Assembly: GCF_900113415.1 (NCBI RefSeq)
Contig: NZ_FOPH01000001.1
Span: 1-64,000, forward strand
From: Oribacterium sp. WCC10
Lineage (GTDB): Bacteria > Bacillota > Clostridia > Lachnospirales > Lachnospiraceae
Reading direction: 5' to 3'
Length of the DNA stretch: 64,000 nt
A program made the position numbers and the translations under genes. The notes under the pieces are model-generated. The model made no database searches, was not told the DNA's origin, and saw nothing but the letters and a program-made list of their open reading frames with translations. Shown here piece after piece: positions 12,748 to 44,301 of the stretch (within the stretch, counting starts at the first letter, position 1; each line of letters starts with the position of its first letter).

Positions 12748-12956
12748 AATAGATACTCCCTTGAAAAAATGTATTGAAAAGGGCATAAGCTACGGATTGT
12801 TTCGAGCCAGTGGCACCCTGACAATCCTGCATAAATCTCGAATCCGTGCTATCACACTTCTTCTCGATTTCTGTTGCCCGTAGAGTATTTGAACATTCGT
12901 CCACGCAAGGATATATGAATATTCAAAGGCCTACATATGACACAGGACTTATGCAC

Positions 12957-14446: not shown

Positions 14447-14468
14447 TAATGCAGGAAAATGGCGGGAT

Positions 14469-14602
14469 GTGTACCAGGCTTGCGAGTTGAAAGAACATCT
14501 CGCAGACATGTACGTGATCGGATGCACTTTGTGCAGACGAGACGAACATGTTAAGAGGATGTACTTTCAATCGAGTGAGTCGGTACACGCCCGACGTTTT
14601 CC
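14469..14602 (+). ncRNA. Structured glnA leader RNA sharing a conserved core with the gltB leader
   Basis: Conserved blocks are CGAACATG (14543), GGATGT (14557), TTTCAATCGAGTG (14565), CGCCC (14588) and TTTTCC (14597), each also found in order and with nearly the same spacing before gltB. Visible pairings: TGCGAG/CTCGCA (14481-14486/14499-14504), TGCAC-TTT-GTGCA (14523-14535), ACATGT/ACATGT (14506-14511/14546-14551), and long-range GTGTACC/GGTACAC (14469-14475/14582-14588). It does not fit the glutamine-I, SAM, cobalamin or c-di-GMP consensus that I know. It is probably a cis-regulatory RNA. Confidence 0.65.
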
Positions 14603-14775
14603 GGATGATTATGTAAGTAGAACAGCGAGTTTAAAAAATGAGTTTCAACAATACAATTTTCAGTTCTTATGATAATATTGTGTCAGACTTTGATGACAAG
14701 TCAGACATTCAGCGTCAGTCTATCGGGTCCCGGGGACCAGGAGATATGACGTTCCCGAATATAGAGGTGAAAGAC

Positions 14776-15990
14776 ATGAATTCTTATGAAGATGTCCTCG
14801 AGTTTGTTGAAGAGGAAAATGTCAAATTTATAAGACTCGCATTTTTTGATGTGTTTGGAGTTCAGAAGAACATCGCAATCATGCCGGATGAGCTGAAAAG
14901 AGCATTTACAGAAGGGGTAAGCATTGACGCAAGTTCGGTTGCAGGCTTCGGTGCAGAGGTACATTCGGATCTTTTCCTTAGACCGGATCCTACCACGATG
15001 TCTATAGTCCCCTGGAGACCTATAGACGGAAGAGTTGCCAAGATGTTTTGCGATATAGAGTATCCTGACGGAAGCCTTTTTCAGAGGGATAGCCGCTGGC
15101 TCCTTAAGCAGGCAGTGAACTTCGCAGAGGAAAAAGGATTCCGCATCAATTTCGGAACAGAGGTTGAGTTCTACATCTTTAAGCTTGATGAGAACGGAAA
15201 CCAGACCAATATTCCTCAGGACAATGCAGGCTATATGGACATCGCACCTGAGGATCATGGTGAGAATATCAGAAGAGACATCAGCCTTGCTCTGGTGGAC
15301 ATGGGTATTCGTCCTGAGTCCAGCCATCATGAGATGGGACCGGGGCAGAATGAAGTTGATTTCAGGTATGCTGATCCGCTTCTTGCAGCGGATAATGCAT
15401 CAACCTTCAAATGGGTGGTTAAGTCAGTTGCGCATTCCGATGGCGTTTGGGCTGATTTTGGCCCGAAGCCTCTTCCCAATAAACCTGGAAACGGAATGCA
15501 TATCAATATCTCCGTTGAGGCCAGGGATGGTCAGGACTACACAAAGTACTTCATGGCGGGAATCATGGAGCATATCAGAGAGATCTCGCTGTTCCTGAAT
15601 CCGACCAGAGAGAGCTATGAGAGACTTGGTGACATGAAGGCGCCTAAGTTTGTAAGCTGGTCCGAGCAGAATCGTTCACAGCTTATCAGAATTCCGGCCA
15701 CAAGATCGAAGCTTAAGAGAATAGAGCTTCGTTCCCCGGATCCTATGGCCAATCCGTACCTTGCATTTACACTTCTTATCTATGCGGGTATAGATGGTAT
15801 CGACAGAAAGATTGAACCTATGGATCCACTGGATGTAAATCTTTTCAAGGCAGATACCACTGTGACTGATGGTCTTAAAAGACTTCCGCAGTCACTGGAC
15901 GAGGCTATAGCATACGCAAAGGGGTCAGACTTTGTGAGAACACTTCTTCCGGAGGGATATCTTCAGGCATATTCCGGAGAAGAGCTGTAG
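14776..15990 (+). CDS. glnA: Glutamine synthetase, type I family (short form)
   Basis: 404 residues from ATG 14776, preceded by AGAGGTGA; this gives the usual N-terminus (MNSYEDVLEFVEEENVKFIRLAFFDVFG). An upstream in-frame ATG at 14638 would add 46 residues with no family resemblance and a poor ribosome site. Active-site blocks are present: FGTEVEFYIF, SSHHEMGPGQNEVDF, GNGMHIN, SWSEQNRSQLIRIPA and ELRSPDPMANPYLAF. It joins ammonia to glutamate with ATP. It ends at LPEGYLQAYSGEEL, about 30-35 residues earlier than Bacillus GlnA, lacking the C-terminal segment that in Bacillus contacts GlnR/TnrA. The adenylylation loop is not present. It is followed by an ANTAR regulator. Confidence 0.92.
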   Translation: MNSYEDVLEFVEEENVKFIRLAFFDVFGVQKNIAIMPDELKRAFTEGVSIDASSVAGFGAEVHSDLFLRPDPTTMSIVPWRPIDGRVAKMFCDIEYPDGSLFQRDSRWLLKQAVNFAEEKGFRINFGTEVEFYIFKLDENGNQTNIPQDNAGYMDIAPEDHGENIRRDISLALVDMGIRPESSHHEMGPGQNEVDFRYADPLLAADNASTFKWVVKSVAHSDGVWADFGPKPLPNKPGNGMHINISVEARDGQDYTKYFMAGIMEHIREISLFLNPTRESYERLGDMKAPKFVSWSEQNRSQLIRIPATRSKLKRIELRSPDPMANPYLAFTLLIYAGIDGIDRKIEPMDPLDVNLFKADTTVTDGLKRLPQSLDEAIAYAKGSDFVRTLLPEGYLQAYSGEEL

Positions 15991-16086
15991 GTTTATTGAA
16001 GATTAAGGACGATTTCCAAAAGTAAGTTATTGTGAACATACACGATACAGCTTTTCGGGAGAAGGGGCATGTTTTTTGAGGATTTC

Positions 16087-16109
16087 CGGTACTGCAAAAG
16101 TACCGTTTT
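16087..16109 (+). terminator. Terminator-like hairpin between glnA and the ANTAR gene
   Basis: CGGTACT (16087-16093) pairs with AGTACCG (16099-16105) across GCAAA, followed by TTTT. It is short, so it may only attenuate read-through into the ANTAR gene. Confidence 0.5.
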
Positions 16110-16121
16110 AGGGAGATAAAC

Positions 16122-16724
16122 ATGGAGAGAGCGGAGCAAGGGAGCAGCGTACTCATCGCAGCGGCTGCTGAAAAGATAGCTGTCCAGATCAAGGGCATAC
16201 TACCTGCCGGATTCGGGAAAGTCTCATTTCAGCCATCCATGACAAAACTTAAGCAGAAGCTGACGGAGGAGAGATACGATGTAGTCATTATCTGTACACC
16301 TCTTCCGGACTACGGACTTCAGTCGGTCATCGAACTTGCGGCCAAATATCCTGCTTTAAGCATACTGATGCTGGTAGACAAAGACGTTTATCAACAGGCG
16401 GTGTACAGGGCGGGGGATTCCGGCATCATGATGCTGGCGAGACCGCTCAGTGCATCAAGCTTCCAGGCTACAGTAAGGATGCTTGGTACCATGAGCAGAA
16501 AGGTTCAGAGACTGGTCAATGATAACCTAAAGCTGCAGCAGAAGCTTTCAGATGAGAGATATATTTCAAGAGCAAAGGGACTCCTCATTGAAAGAGGAGG
16601 CATGACAGAGGCCGATGCCCATAGATATCTGGAGCAGCAGGCTATGAATACTTCCGTTACAAAACGCGAGGTGGCTATGAAAGTCATCCGGGACAGCGGA
16701 AGGATAATTATAAGCACACAGTAA
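16122..16724 (+). CDS. ANTAR-domain RNA-binding antiterminator with a pseudo-receiver domain
   Basis: 200 residues; the start ATG follows AGGGAGA. Residues 1 to about 125 resemble a response-regulator receiver, but the phosphoacceptor Asp is replaced (DVVIICTPLPDYG has Cys where LLD is expected) and the conserved Lys near the end is Arg (LARPL), so phosphorylation is unlikely, as in AmiR. A short coiled coil (RKVQRLVNDNLKLQQKL) leads into an ANTAR domain (about 140-195: RYISRAKGLLIERGGMTEADAHRYLEQQAMNTSVTKREVA). Known: ANTAR proteins bind hexaloop hairpins in nascent RNA and block terminators. Its location between glnA and glnN, beside three leaders with such hairpins, makes it the likely regulator of asnB, dapL and glnN. 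The signal it senses is unknown. Confidence 0.9.
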   Translation: MERAEQGSSVLIAAAAEKIAVQIKGILPAGFGKVSFQPSMTKLKQKLTEERYDVVIICTPLPDYGLQSVIELAAKYPALSILMLVDKDVYQQAVYRAGDSGIMMLARPLSASSFQATVRMLGTMSRKVQRLVNDNLKLQQKLSDERYISRAKGLLIERGGMTEADAHRYLEQQAMNTSVTKREVAMKVIRDSGRIIISTQ

Positions 16725-16843
16725 AAACTTTTCGATCAGGAGAATGACGATTTGTACAGAGGATCATTCACTTAAGGAGTTTTGATGATCGGAAGGCCTT
16801 TTCAAGAGGCCGGATAGAAATATTAATTAAATATGTATTGACT

Positions 16844-16892
16844 GAGAGGACAATGGCGTTCTGCGAATTATTTCGTACGCTGTTGTCCTCTC
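16844..16892 (+). promoter_or_regulatory. glnN leader: ANTAR-type hexaloop overlapping a long hairpin
   Basis: AGGAC-[AATGGC]-GTTCT (16847-16862) is a 5-bp stem with a hexaloop having A1 and G4. The overlapping alternative is GAGAGGACAA (16844-16853) paired with TTGTCCTCTC (16883-16892), enclosing GCGT/ACGC and CGAA-TTAT-TTCG. The following TTCATTTAT is a poor U tract, so termination may be weaker than at dapL. The sequence GG-C-AA-[CT]-GGCGT-[CT]-CTG is shared with the dapL leader. Confidence 0.65.
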
Positions 16893-16995
16893 TTCATTTA
16901 TAAAAGTGCAAAAACCTGTCAATGGAATAAATCACTGTGCAGGATAAGCAAAGATCAGATTGAATTCATCTGATTTACATAAAAGGAGGAAAGCT

Positions 16996-19104
16996 ATGAG
17001 TACATCAACCATTTCTGAAATCTACGGTAGTCTTGTTTTCAATGACAAGATCATGAGGGAGAGACTCCCTAAGAACATCTATAAAGCCGTTCATAAGACG
17101 ATACAGAACGGAACACATCTGGAGATAGATGTTGCCAATACTGTAGCTGCAACTATGAAGGAGTGGGCTCTTGAAAAGGGAGCAACACATTACACTCACT
17201 GGTTCCAGCCTATGACAGGTCTTACTGCTGAAAAGCACGACAGCTTTATCACACCTACAGCGGATGGTGGTGTACTTCTTGAGTTCTCAGGCAAGGAGCT
17301 TGTAAAGGGTGAGCCGGATGCATCATCATTCCCATCAGGCGGTCTCAGAGCAACCTTCGAGGCACGTGGATATACCGCGTGGGATCCTTCATCACCTGCA
17401 TTTATCAAGGACGGAACTCTTTATATCCCTACAGCCTTCTGTTCATACACCGGTGAGGCTCTTGATAAGAAGACTCCGCTTCTTCGTTCAATGGAGACTC
17501 TCAGCGAATCAGCCACAAAGCTTCTTCATATCCTTGGAAAAACCGAGGTAACAAGAGTCGATACAACAGTTGGTTCAGAGCAGGAGTATTTCCTTATCGA
17601 CAAGGATCTTTATAAGGAAAGAGAGGATCTGCTTCTTACAGGACGTACACTTATCGGTGCATCAGCTCCCAAGGGACAGGAGATGGAGGATCACTACTTC
17701 GGAGTTCTCAAGCCAAAGGTTTCCGCATTCATGCATGATCTTGATGAAGAGCTCTGGAAGCTTGGAATTCCTGCAAAGACAAAGCACAATGAGGTAGCTC
17801 CTTCACAGCATGAGCTGGCTCCGGTTTTTGAGACCGCAAACATCGCTGTTGATCATAACCAGCTCACTATGGAAATCATGAAGAAGGTTGCAGATAAGCA
17901 CAACTTCGCATGTCTCCTTCATGAGAAGCCATTTGAGGGAATCAATGGTTCAGGTAAGCACAATAACTGGTCAATGATCACATCAGAGGGTGAGAACCTT
18001 CTTGATCCCGGAAAGAATCCTGAAAAGAATACGCAGTTCCTTCTTTTCCTGTCAGCCATCATCAAGGCTATCGATGAGTATGCAGATATCATGAGAGTTT
18101 CCGTTGCAACAGCCGGAAATGACCACAGACTCGGCGCAAATGAAGCACCACCAGCTATCGTTTCCGTATATGTAGGTGATGCCCTTGAGAAGGTTATCGA
18201 GTCAATCGAAAATGAAGAGGCAGACTTCAAGTCAGATGCATTGGCACAGATGGAGACAGGTGCTCACGTACTTCCTCATTTCAGAAAGGACAACACAGAC
18301 CGTAACAGAACATCACCGTTTGCATTTACAGGTAACAAATTCGAGTTCCGTATGCCGGGATCATCACTTTCAGTTGCAGACCCTAACATCGTACTTAACA
18401 CAGCTGTGGCAGAGGCTCTTGATCAGATAGTTGAGAGACTTTCAGGAGTCGCTCCTGAGAATCTCGAGGAAGAGGCAGGAAAGCTTATCAAGGAGCTCAT
18501 CGAAAAGCACAGAAGAATCGTTTTCAATGGAAACGGTTATACAGACGAGTGGGTTGAGGAAGCAGAAAGAAGAGGACTTTACAACCTTAAGTCACTTCCC
18601 GAGGCTATGCCAAGACTTGTAGCTGAGAAGAACAAGGCGCTCTTTGTAAAGCATCATGTATTTACTGAGACTGAGATTGATTCAAGATACGAGATCTTCC
18701 TTGAGAACTATTCAAAGACAATCCGTATTGAGGCACTCACAATGCTTGAGATGGTAAAGAAGGATTTCACTGAGGGACTTCTCAAGTATCAGATAGAGGT
18801 TACAGCCACAGCGCTTTCCAAGAAGCAGCTTATTTCCGGTGTGACATGTGCACTTGAGACAGGTATCCTTGCAAAGCTTGATAAGGCGGCAGAGGAGATC
18901 AGCAAGGGTGTTGAGAAGCTTGAAAATGATATCCATGATGCAGAGGGACTTGAAGACAGCCTCGCTCAGGCAAAAGCTTATCATGACAGCGTTCTTGCAG
19001 ACATGGATGCTTTGAGAGTGCATGTTGATTCAGCAGAAGCTATGATTCCTGAGAGCTGCCTGCCATATCCGACATATTCAAAGCTTCTGTTCTCACTTAG
19101 ATAA
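16996..19104 (+). CDS. glnN: Glutamine synthetase type III
   Basis: 702 residues from ATG 16996, which has AAAGGAGG 6-7 bases upstream. Length and sequence fit GSIII: the N-terminal GSIII-specific domain (ISEIYGSLVFND...), THYTHWFQPMTGLTAEKHDSF, the SGGLRATFEARGYTAWDPSSP loop region, GSEQEYFLID, NEVAPSQHELAP, GINGSGKHNNWS and FRMPGSS. It makes glutamine from glutamate, ammonia and ATP as large oligomers. It sits after the ANTAR gene and its ANTAR-type leader, and before gltB, so glutamine and glutamate formation are coupled in one locus. Confidence 0.96.
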   Translation: MSTSTISEIYGSLVFNDKIMRERLPKNIYKAVHKTIQNGTHLEIDVANTVAATMKEWALEKGATHYTHWFQPMTGLTAEKHDSFITPTADGGVLLEFSGKELVKGEPDASSFPSGGLRATFEARGYTAWDPSSPAFIKDGTLYIPTAFCSYTGEALDKKTPLLRSMETLSESATKLLHILGKTEVTRVDTTVGSEQEYFLIDKDLYKEREDLLLTGRTLIGASAPKGQEMEDHYFGVLKPKVSAFMHDLDEELWKLGIPAKTKHNEVAPSQHELAPVFETANIAVDHNQLTMEIMKKVADKHNFACLLHEKPFEGINGSGKHNNWSMITSEGENLLDPGKNPEKNTQFLLFLSAIIKAIDEYADIMRVSVATAGNDHRLGANEAPPAIVSVYVGDALEKVIESIENEEADFKSDALAQMETGAHVLPHFRKDNTDRNRTSPFAFTGNKFEFRMPGSSLSVADPNIVLNTAVAEALDQIVERLSGVAPENLEEEAGKLIKELIEKHRRIVFNGNGYTDEWVEEAERRGLYNLKSLPEAMPRLVAEKNKALFVKHHVFTETEIDSRYEIFLENYSKTIRIEALTMLEMVKKDFTEGLLKYQIEVTATALSKKQLISGVTCALETGILAKLDKAAEEISKGVEKLENDIHDAEGLEDSLAQAKAYHDSVLADMDALRVHVDSAEAMIPESCLPYPTYSKLLFSLR

Positions 19105-19296
19105 TGTGATGATGTCAGGCTGCATATACATATGAACTAGTGCACCGGTGCATTATCAGTAGGGGGTAAAAGGATCGAATTGAGTGCTTGCACAACAATT
19201 TGATATTTAATCCGCTTGAAATTCAGTGTTTCCGCTTGTTGAATCCGATGAATTATTCGGCAATACGGGCGAAATCATACATAAGACTAAGATTTC

Positions 19297-19522
19297 CTGA
19301 CTGCTGATCTTTTGTCAGCAGTCAGGGCAAATCCTGCAGGGGTGAGAGATCATTCCTGCTTGATTTGTAGCATCAACCCGACAATGAATGTCGTTCTTGC
19401 ACGAGCAGACATTGTCCGGTGCAAGAACATGGAGCGCAAAGTGCGGAATGTTCACGGGTGCGAACATGACAAACAGGATGTTTTTTCAATCGAGTGGGCC
19501 GGCACCCGCCCAAACATTTTCC
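19297..19522 (+). ncRNA. Structured gltB leader RNA, paralogous to the glnA leader
   Basis: This fills the gap between glnN and gltB. Upstream hairpins are CTGACTGCTGA/TCAGCAGTCAG (19297/19315) and CAAATC..GCAGG/CCTGC..GATTTG (19328-19367). The core has GTTCTTGCAC/GTGCAAGAAC (19393/19419, 10 bp), a small AAA-loop hairpin (19434-19444), ATGTTC/GAACAT (19448/19462), and a likely pseudoknot of its loop CGGGTGC (19455-19461) with GCACCCG (19502-19508). Blocks CGAACATG (19461), GGATGT (19476), TTTCAATCGAGTG (19484), CGCCC (19507) and TTTTCC (19517) match the glnA leader. The region 19105-19296 shows nothing clear. Confidence 0.7.
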
Positions 19523-31281: not shown

Positions 31282-31293
31282 GCGTATAAGTCC

Positions 31294-31352
31294 TGTGTCA
31301 AGCGGCGTTTCATCCTTCAAGCTTGCTTGTAAGGATGAAGCGACATTTGACA
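31294..31352 (+). repeat. Imperfect palindrome downstream of groEL
   Basis: GTGTCAA...TTTCATCCTT (from 31296) pairs with AAGGATGAA...TTTGACAC. There is no T run, so it may be an mRNA 3' stabiliser rather than a terminator. A second structured stretch follows at 31359-31440, with GGATATC/GATATCC and GCATTGC/GCAATGC arms. Confidence 0.5.
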
Positions 31353-31445
31353 CGACAACGGATATCGAAAATAAGCGCGTTAGCGCGGTTTGAGATATCC
31401 GTTAGCATTGCGGGAGTTGCGAAGCAATGAAGCAATGCGTGGGAC

Positions 31446-31474
31446 TTGTACTATGTATATAAAGTTCGTATAAT
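31446..31474 (+). promoter_or_regulatory. Strong sigma-A promoter immediately before a terminator
   Basis: TTGTAC (31446-31451), a 17-base spacer and perfect TATAAT (31469-31474). The only thing in its first 40 transcribed bases is the terminator at 31476-31512. Confidence 0.65.
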
Positions 31475-44032: not shown

Positions 44033-44301
44033 TATCCGTGTTTCATTGAAACACGGATGCCGCCCAGGTGATGGGAACCCCAGCCCATGAGAAGTCGCAG
44101 AGCGAGGGCTGGGGCTATATGGCAGGTCCCTTTTGGGGACCTGTCACGAGTGGCGAGGCTGGTTTCGGCTTTGACGAAATCAAACGAAAACGCCCTGCGC
44201 GATTTGTGGCAGATTCCCTTGGGAATCTGCCATGTAGCGTCAGTTAATGGCGTTTTCTCCTTGCTAATATCCGTGTTTCATTGAAACACGGATGCCGCCC
44301 A
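44033..44301 (+). repeat. Hairpin cluster flanked by a 35-bp direct repeat
   Basis: The sequence from TAATATCCGTGTTTC through GGATGCCGCCCAG appears at about 44030-44067 and again at about 44264-44302, each with the palindrome CCGTGTTTCA-TT-GAAACACGG. Between them are CCCCAGCCC/GGGCTGGGG, GGCAGGTCCC/GGGGACCTGTC and GGCAGATTCCC/GGGAATCTGCC hairpins. TGCCATGTAGCGTCAGT (44228-44244) recurs nearly unchanged at 52888. No gene is present; a 65-codon frame here is only palindromic filler. Confidence 0.7.

Follow-up and report, generated by a model that had tools for sequence, protein, structure and literature searches.

A probable palindromic repeat family of rumen Oribacterium with an intact member upstream of glnA and a truncated one upstream of gltB

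The leaders of glnA and gltB in the window (the whole 64-kb stretch of DNA analysed here) very probably carry members, intact at glnA and truncated at gltB, of a palindromic repeat family that is dispersed through the genomes of rumen Oribacterium. The best fit is to class it with the known REPIN/ERIC kind of palindromic repeats, as a new family. The original prediction saw in the two leaders an unrecognised structured RNA specific to glnA and gltB. The RNA is indeed unrecognised, as neither leader matches Rfam at gathering thresholds. Its tie to the two genes is not supported: copies stand in either orientation in many unrelated intergenic gaps, gltB has only a fragment, and most of the relatives' glnA and gltB leaders that were read lack the element.

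The glnA and gltB leaders

The glnA leader contains an imperfect palindrome predicted to fold into a single rod, whose termini GGAAAA and TTTTCC are base-paired in the predicted fold; a 180-nt stretch containing this rod has a predicted folding energy of -81.9 kcal/mol. Covariance model R2 matches the copy with 132.9 bits (E 1.9e-34, span 14455-14601), and 67 nt separate the end of the 5' strand of the outer helix from CGAACATG (14543). The gene 5' of the rod is dapL (LL-diaminopimelate aminotransferase; NCBIfam 503.3 bits). Reading the sequence by eye puts the probable start of glnA at 14776, 3' of the ORF start at 14638. Elsewhere in the 64 kb, two stretches match Clostridiales-1 RNA (31287-31448 on the plus strand and 12784-12939 on the minus strand).

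Table 1. Coordinates of the features in and around the two leaders (positions are those of the window).
Feature	Position	Strand	Remarks
Complete type-A palindromic rod	14454..14602	+	149 nt, between dapL and glnA
Outer helix, 5' strand GTGTACC	14469..14475	+	Pairs with 14582-14588; helix covaries across copies
Conserved block GGCTTGCGAGTTGAAAGAACA	14477..14497	+	Most positions at least 90% conserved in 73 distinct copies
Conserved block ATGTACTTTCAATCGAGTG	14559..14577	+	Conservation over 73 distinct copies
Outer helix, 3' strand GGTACAC	14582..14588	+	Pairs with 14469-14475; helix covaries across copies
glnA coding region, likely start	14776..15990	+	NCBIfam GlnA 356.8 bits, under the cut-off of 429.15
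Two-hairpin gltB leader, outside the element	19297..19369	+	Similar in KHPX15, NK2B42 and RUI013 (by eye)
3' fragment of the element, gltB leader	19461..19522	+	79% identity to the glnA copy; 5' part unrecognisable

All five sequence blocks predicted to be common to the two leaders were found, in the order and at the positions claimed. The resemblance is above chance, with a local alignment score of 55 that none of 2000 dinucleotide-preserving shuffles reached (maximum 32), but at gltB it is limited to the 3' third of the element. There, blastn between the leaders returns a single 62-nt alignment (79% identical, E 6e-10), and the full R2 model scores merely 19.5 bits on the gltB region (E 0.18). 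The proposed long-range helix divides in the same way: GTGTACC/GGTACAC is the outer helix of the family at glnA, but CGGGTGC/GCACCCG at gltB is not homologous to it. Because CGGGTGC (19455-19461) overlaps the first base of CGAACATG (19461), it is not equivalent to an outer-helix strand. The element is also distinct from the two-hairpin leader of gltB, as had been claimed by the original prediction, which termed that leader ANTAR-type.

No Rfam family matches the glnA or gltB leader at gathering thresholds. Searches with E up to 10 returned snoRNA, microRNA and one malK-II match, all far under their gathering scores and mostly on the opposite strand or outside the element. Glutamine riboswitches include the glnA RNA and the Downstream-peptide RNA. 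One rod copy does lie 5' of glnA, but we rejected a glutamine riboswitch because neither leader has such a match at E up to 10 and the element is dispersed at unrelated genes. A limited literature search found no published description of the rod element, which does not establish its absence from print.

Structure and range of the family

An intact copy, about 150 nt in length, folds as a single long rod that includes A-A mismatches and G-U pairs as well as conserved internal loops. Across 73 distinct copies, standard pairs fill 93.6% of cells and 35 of the 57 pairs show two-sided changes. Two-sided compensatory cells number 432, versus 110 in shuffled and 44-74 in slid controls, in an alignment that was fitted to the model and is therefore biased towards structure; a model-free alignment of nine copies already has two-sided changes at 17 of 48 pairs. 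The compensating stems and conserved loops of the original prediction are in this way borne out by covariation in further copies, yet those copies lie mostly at other genes.

Conservation over copies concentrates in a GGCTTGCGAGTTGAAAG-ACA block and a TGT-TTTCAA-GTG block, and one U-G and one G-U pair are each invariant in 73 of 73 copies. The stems are free in sequence and nearly fixed in length. Of 68 copies, 61 fit the pattern for the arm between AACA and TGTNCG. Among these 61 the arm has 55 different sequences, yet in 60 of them it is 12 or 13 long, where 8-14 was allowed.

These properties recall known repeat systems. According to the available part of PMC3116915, REPINs have a variable part that is limited both in its length and in its capacity to form a hairpin, and compensatory changes are common; in REPs preserved palindromy is taken as selection for complementary mutations (available part of PMC2817692). 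The rod is likewise extragenic, dispersed, partly conserved and capable of a long hairpin, and we find in it the same length-constrained hairpin with compensatory changes that the consulted part of PMC3116915 attributes to REPINs. It differs from REPINs, which are hairpins of REP doublets linked to RAYT, in its length of about 150 nt with conserved internal loops, its strand polarity and the many sites that it shares between species. A search for a Y1 transposase also found none in its host or in three further carriers. Stem-loop repeats including ERIC, YPAL and Correia/NEMIS measure about 100-200 bp and give transcripts that form long stem-loops (PMC2229807, PMC2267715, both in part). Our family resembles them in size and in forming one long stem-loop, and has the many intergenic copies of about 100-200 bp, each a single long stem-loop, that characterise ERIC, YPAL and SLS. 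In contrast to ERIC, YPAL and Correia/NEMIS, whose sequences were compared with it via Rfam only, it occurs in an Oribacterium clade, has stems far more variable than its conserved blocks, and yielded no target duplication.

The copies are dispersed within the genome and narrowly distributed among genomes. In the 3.64-Mb genome to which the window belongs as contig 15 (G000), one 13-base block of the element has five exact matches. Covariance models were built from eight copies (R1), from 31 copies (R2) and, more broadly, as R3. With R1 and R2 this genome yields eight full type-A copies, the sister subtype B at five places, and short forms of 43, 91 and 92 nt. Rods of subtype B (L041, L044, L045 and L159) contain perfect hairpins between an A-run and a T-run, which by eye resemble bidirectional intrinsic terminators.

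Within the genus, 9 of 17 genomes have matches; the per-genome counts, which reach 70 in G162, include both strands of the palindrome, so that copies number about half. One of 397 genomes in the family sample matches R2 and one of 392 in the order sample matches R3, in both cases the window's own, under stricter filters that may have lost weak matches. Each sample holds one other genome of the genus, in which the element is absent. A scan of named genomes with one exact pattern found 46 stretches, comprising 39 from Oribacterium, five from Lachnospiraceae bacterium JC7 and two from Dysgonomonas. Both Dysgonomonas pattern matches lack a model match at E up to 0.01, and we dropped them as chance. 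Carriage by phages or plasmids was likewise rejected: the phage and plasmid collections hold no match to the element, nor do viral contigs contain the one exact pattern searched. In many copies the rod is followed 3' by a tail like TGTACCATTTCA (by eye), so the repeat unit may exceed the palindrome. Two JC7 copies, L064 and L072, have common upstream sequence reaching the contig ends, which suggests a longer repeat there.

Strand polarity, differences between sites and possible roles

The hairpin of the plus strand is the form that tolerates change. With mostly-wobble columns excluded, G-U pairs outnumber A-C combinations by 135 to 26, a count weakened by the relatedness of the copies; by column, the excess is weaker at 23 versus 8 (p 0.011). 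The copies are intergenic: in none of 68 does the overlap with a called gene exceed 30 nt. Their orientation is also biased. Between co-directional genes, 22 sites are sense and five antisense (22/27, p 0.0015), one of the 22 being a tie between two gene calls; nine further sites lie in convergent gaps, six in divergent gaps, and two have one neighbour unknown. Counted per copy, 29 are sense versus 11 antisense (p 0.006); for 44 copies, a simpler way of calling genes gave 23 versus 6. These orientation counts rest on gene calls from a custom codon-usage script and on copies chosen by the type-A pattern, which excludes sister subtypes and stubs.

Given the excess of G-U over A-C, the intergenic location and the sense bias, the target of selection is probably the hairpin of the transcribed strand. 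Sense bias and strand-polarised pairing together suggest that this hairpin acts in read-through transcripts. The sense bias could also be a by-product of replication direction, and replication-strand effects, relatedness of the copies and hairpin mobility remain as alternatives.

We propose that the rod is a non-autonomous unit which, in the manner of REPIN-, ERIC- and YPAL-type repeats, would have spread through the intergenic DNA of rumen Oribacterium, and whose fate would now differ from site to site, some copies being retained and others shortened, altered or lost. Copies may be read through from the upstream gene, with the hairpin then acting at the transcript level; its most likely role would be that of an RNase-processed or stability element between adjacent genes. 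At glnA, the rod would be such a processing or stability element between dapL and glnA. Comparable behaviour is described for ERIC, which has an orientation-dependent effect on upstream mRNA via an RNase E site (PMC2229807, in part), and for the Correia element, which binds RNase III and is cleaved or protected by it (PMC2649163, in part). In a more speculative extension, one that we think rather improbable, the strand-polarised and genus-specific RNA rod would be a common tag for a host RNA-binding or processing factor, its sequence-free stems would serve as rulers of fixed length, and its inner part would be exchangeable for another structured repeat.

A rival reading treats the rod as purely selfish hairpin DNA, whose fold serves mobility as single-stranded DNA and whose compensatory changes arise via mobility or via template switching in the palindrome. 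We give it a real, if minor, chance of being right. Complementary changes are also known from REPs and REPINs, and constrained length from REPINs (PMC2817692 and PMC3116915, both in part), and nested and partial copies of the rod occur. Orthologous sites supply a further point in its favour: at L107 and L141, whose flanks are 96% and 94% identical, six base pairs have changed on both sides and are still paired. Altogether, seven equal-length pairs of orthologues (one taken from outside an 18-pair comparison in which two pairs were missed by the pattern) comprise 449 base pairs, among which 10 changed on both sides and nine on one side while still paired, and nine are broken. Against purely selfish DNA, template switching should remove mismatches, which are nevertheless conserved; the sense bias and the excess of G-U over A-C indicate the transcribed strand; and a Y1 transposase was found in none of four carriers.

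The search for a mobiliser bears on the same question. Y1_Tnp has no match in carriers G000, G154, G156 and G157, whose assemblies are incomplete (G157 is 73% complete), while PF01797 matches 9 of the 17 genus genomes, including the non-carriers G150, G151, G163 and G165. We rejected a Y1/RAYT transposase as mobiliser, PF01797 being found in none of the four carriers examined and present in four non-carriers. Also rejected was an autonomous element flanked by two copies: for the one close pair whose intervening ORFs were read (L060), the ORF resembles homoserine dehydrogenase, an identity that NCBIfam confirmed for the same protein from L117.

Clustering on similarity of either flank yielded 44 site clusters, 16 of them with more than one copy; 15 of these span different genomes, and the remaining one consists of L064 and L072, two copies from one genome. 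As 15 of 44 site clusters are common to at least two genomes, the mobility of the family need not be recent. The site shared most widely, by five genomes, lies at the purine genes, and the copy there runs antisense to the gene on either side. Between species, sites differ by internal shortening, by a middle swapped for another structured repeat, or by absence; at the compared sites we saw no clean junction and no insertion flanked by a target duplication, but messy deletions or replacements instead. In 35 non-independent orthologue pairs, divergence is 8.2% in the conserved blocks (4 gap positions in 1641) and 17.7% in the middle, versus 11.8%, with many gaps, in the intergenic flanks. Taken as evidence of constraint, the lower divergence of the blocks is modest.

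The window also contains, at 44152-44201 and in the surroundings, part of another dispersed structured repeat. This multi-hairpin unit is found near mutS as well, and within the middle of several rods. In L043 (1501-1688) and L178 (19322-19506) the inner rod has been exchanged for this second repeat and the outer stem kept, and the same replacement is seen at the purL site of the window's own genome and of KHPX15.

Neighbouring genes and presence in relatives

Copies lie 5' of hisB, pyrB, argH, hom and a DAHP synthase gene (NCBIfam), and 5' of mutS and purL (genes recognised by eye). A dispersed RNA regulon, in which a trans-acting protein recognises the rod in transcripts and regulates many, perhaps mainly anabolic, genes, would accommodate the first five of these downstream genes, together with the strand-polarised pairing, the sense bias and the conserved unpaired positions and wobble pairs. 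We consider it unlikely, as the neighbours are mixed (mutS, recA and others, by eye) and presence at a given gene differs between species.

At glnA and gltB themselves, the element is rarely found in relatives. Among ten glnA leaders read, including that of the window, a full copy is present in the window's own genome only. In the KHPX15 leader, a short hairpin that is similar at its ends was recognised by eye at the equivalent place, and R2 and R3 miss it; the remaining eight contain no element by eye, and none of the nine relatives' glnA loci matches R2 or R3. NK2B42 and RUI013, whose loci are without the upstream gene, were left out of this reading. For gltB, two of eight relatives' leaders have a model match: RUI013 a short form of about 61-64 nt (R2, 46.8 bits) and G161 a full copy of the sister subtype C (R3, 71.7 bits). 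Both reading and models found no element in the gltB leaders of P6A1, KHPX15, NK2B42, C9, JC7 and UBA4274. Retention upstream of the same gene in relatives, as looked for in a cis-regulatory element, is seen at neither glnA nor gltB. The presence of some form at gltB in three of nine carriers may reflect an old insertion kept there.

This orthologue comparison largely refutes a nitrogen-sensing riboswitch or protein-binding leader controlling glnA and gltB, which we regard as very improbable even though two copies precede nitrogen-assimilation genes and the G161 and RUI013 forms both lie 5' of gltB, because a full copy is found in one of ten glnA leaders (the window's own) and none at gltB in six of eight relatives, the window's gltB copy is a fragment, many copies lie at unrelated genes, some of them antisense, and one precedes a ribozyme, that of glmS, which already senses.

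Conserved loops and compensating stems before two related genes make the classic argument for a riboswitch, and a dispersed hairpin repeat yields the same signature. Thus, where few copies of a riboswitch candidate are known, one should ask whether it is dispersed and whether relatives have it. With dozens of copies on which to measure the G-U/A-C asymmetry and the gene-sense bias, the family also offers a good test case for distinguishing selection on a repeat at the RNA level from mobility at the DNA level. The copy beside glmS lies 89 nt 5' of the ribozyme, and the gltB leader of UBA4274 has a different long hairpin.
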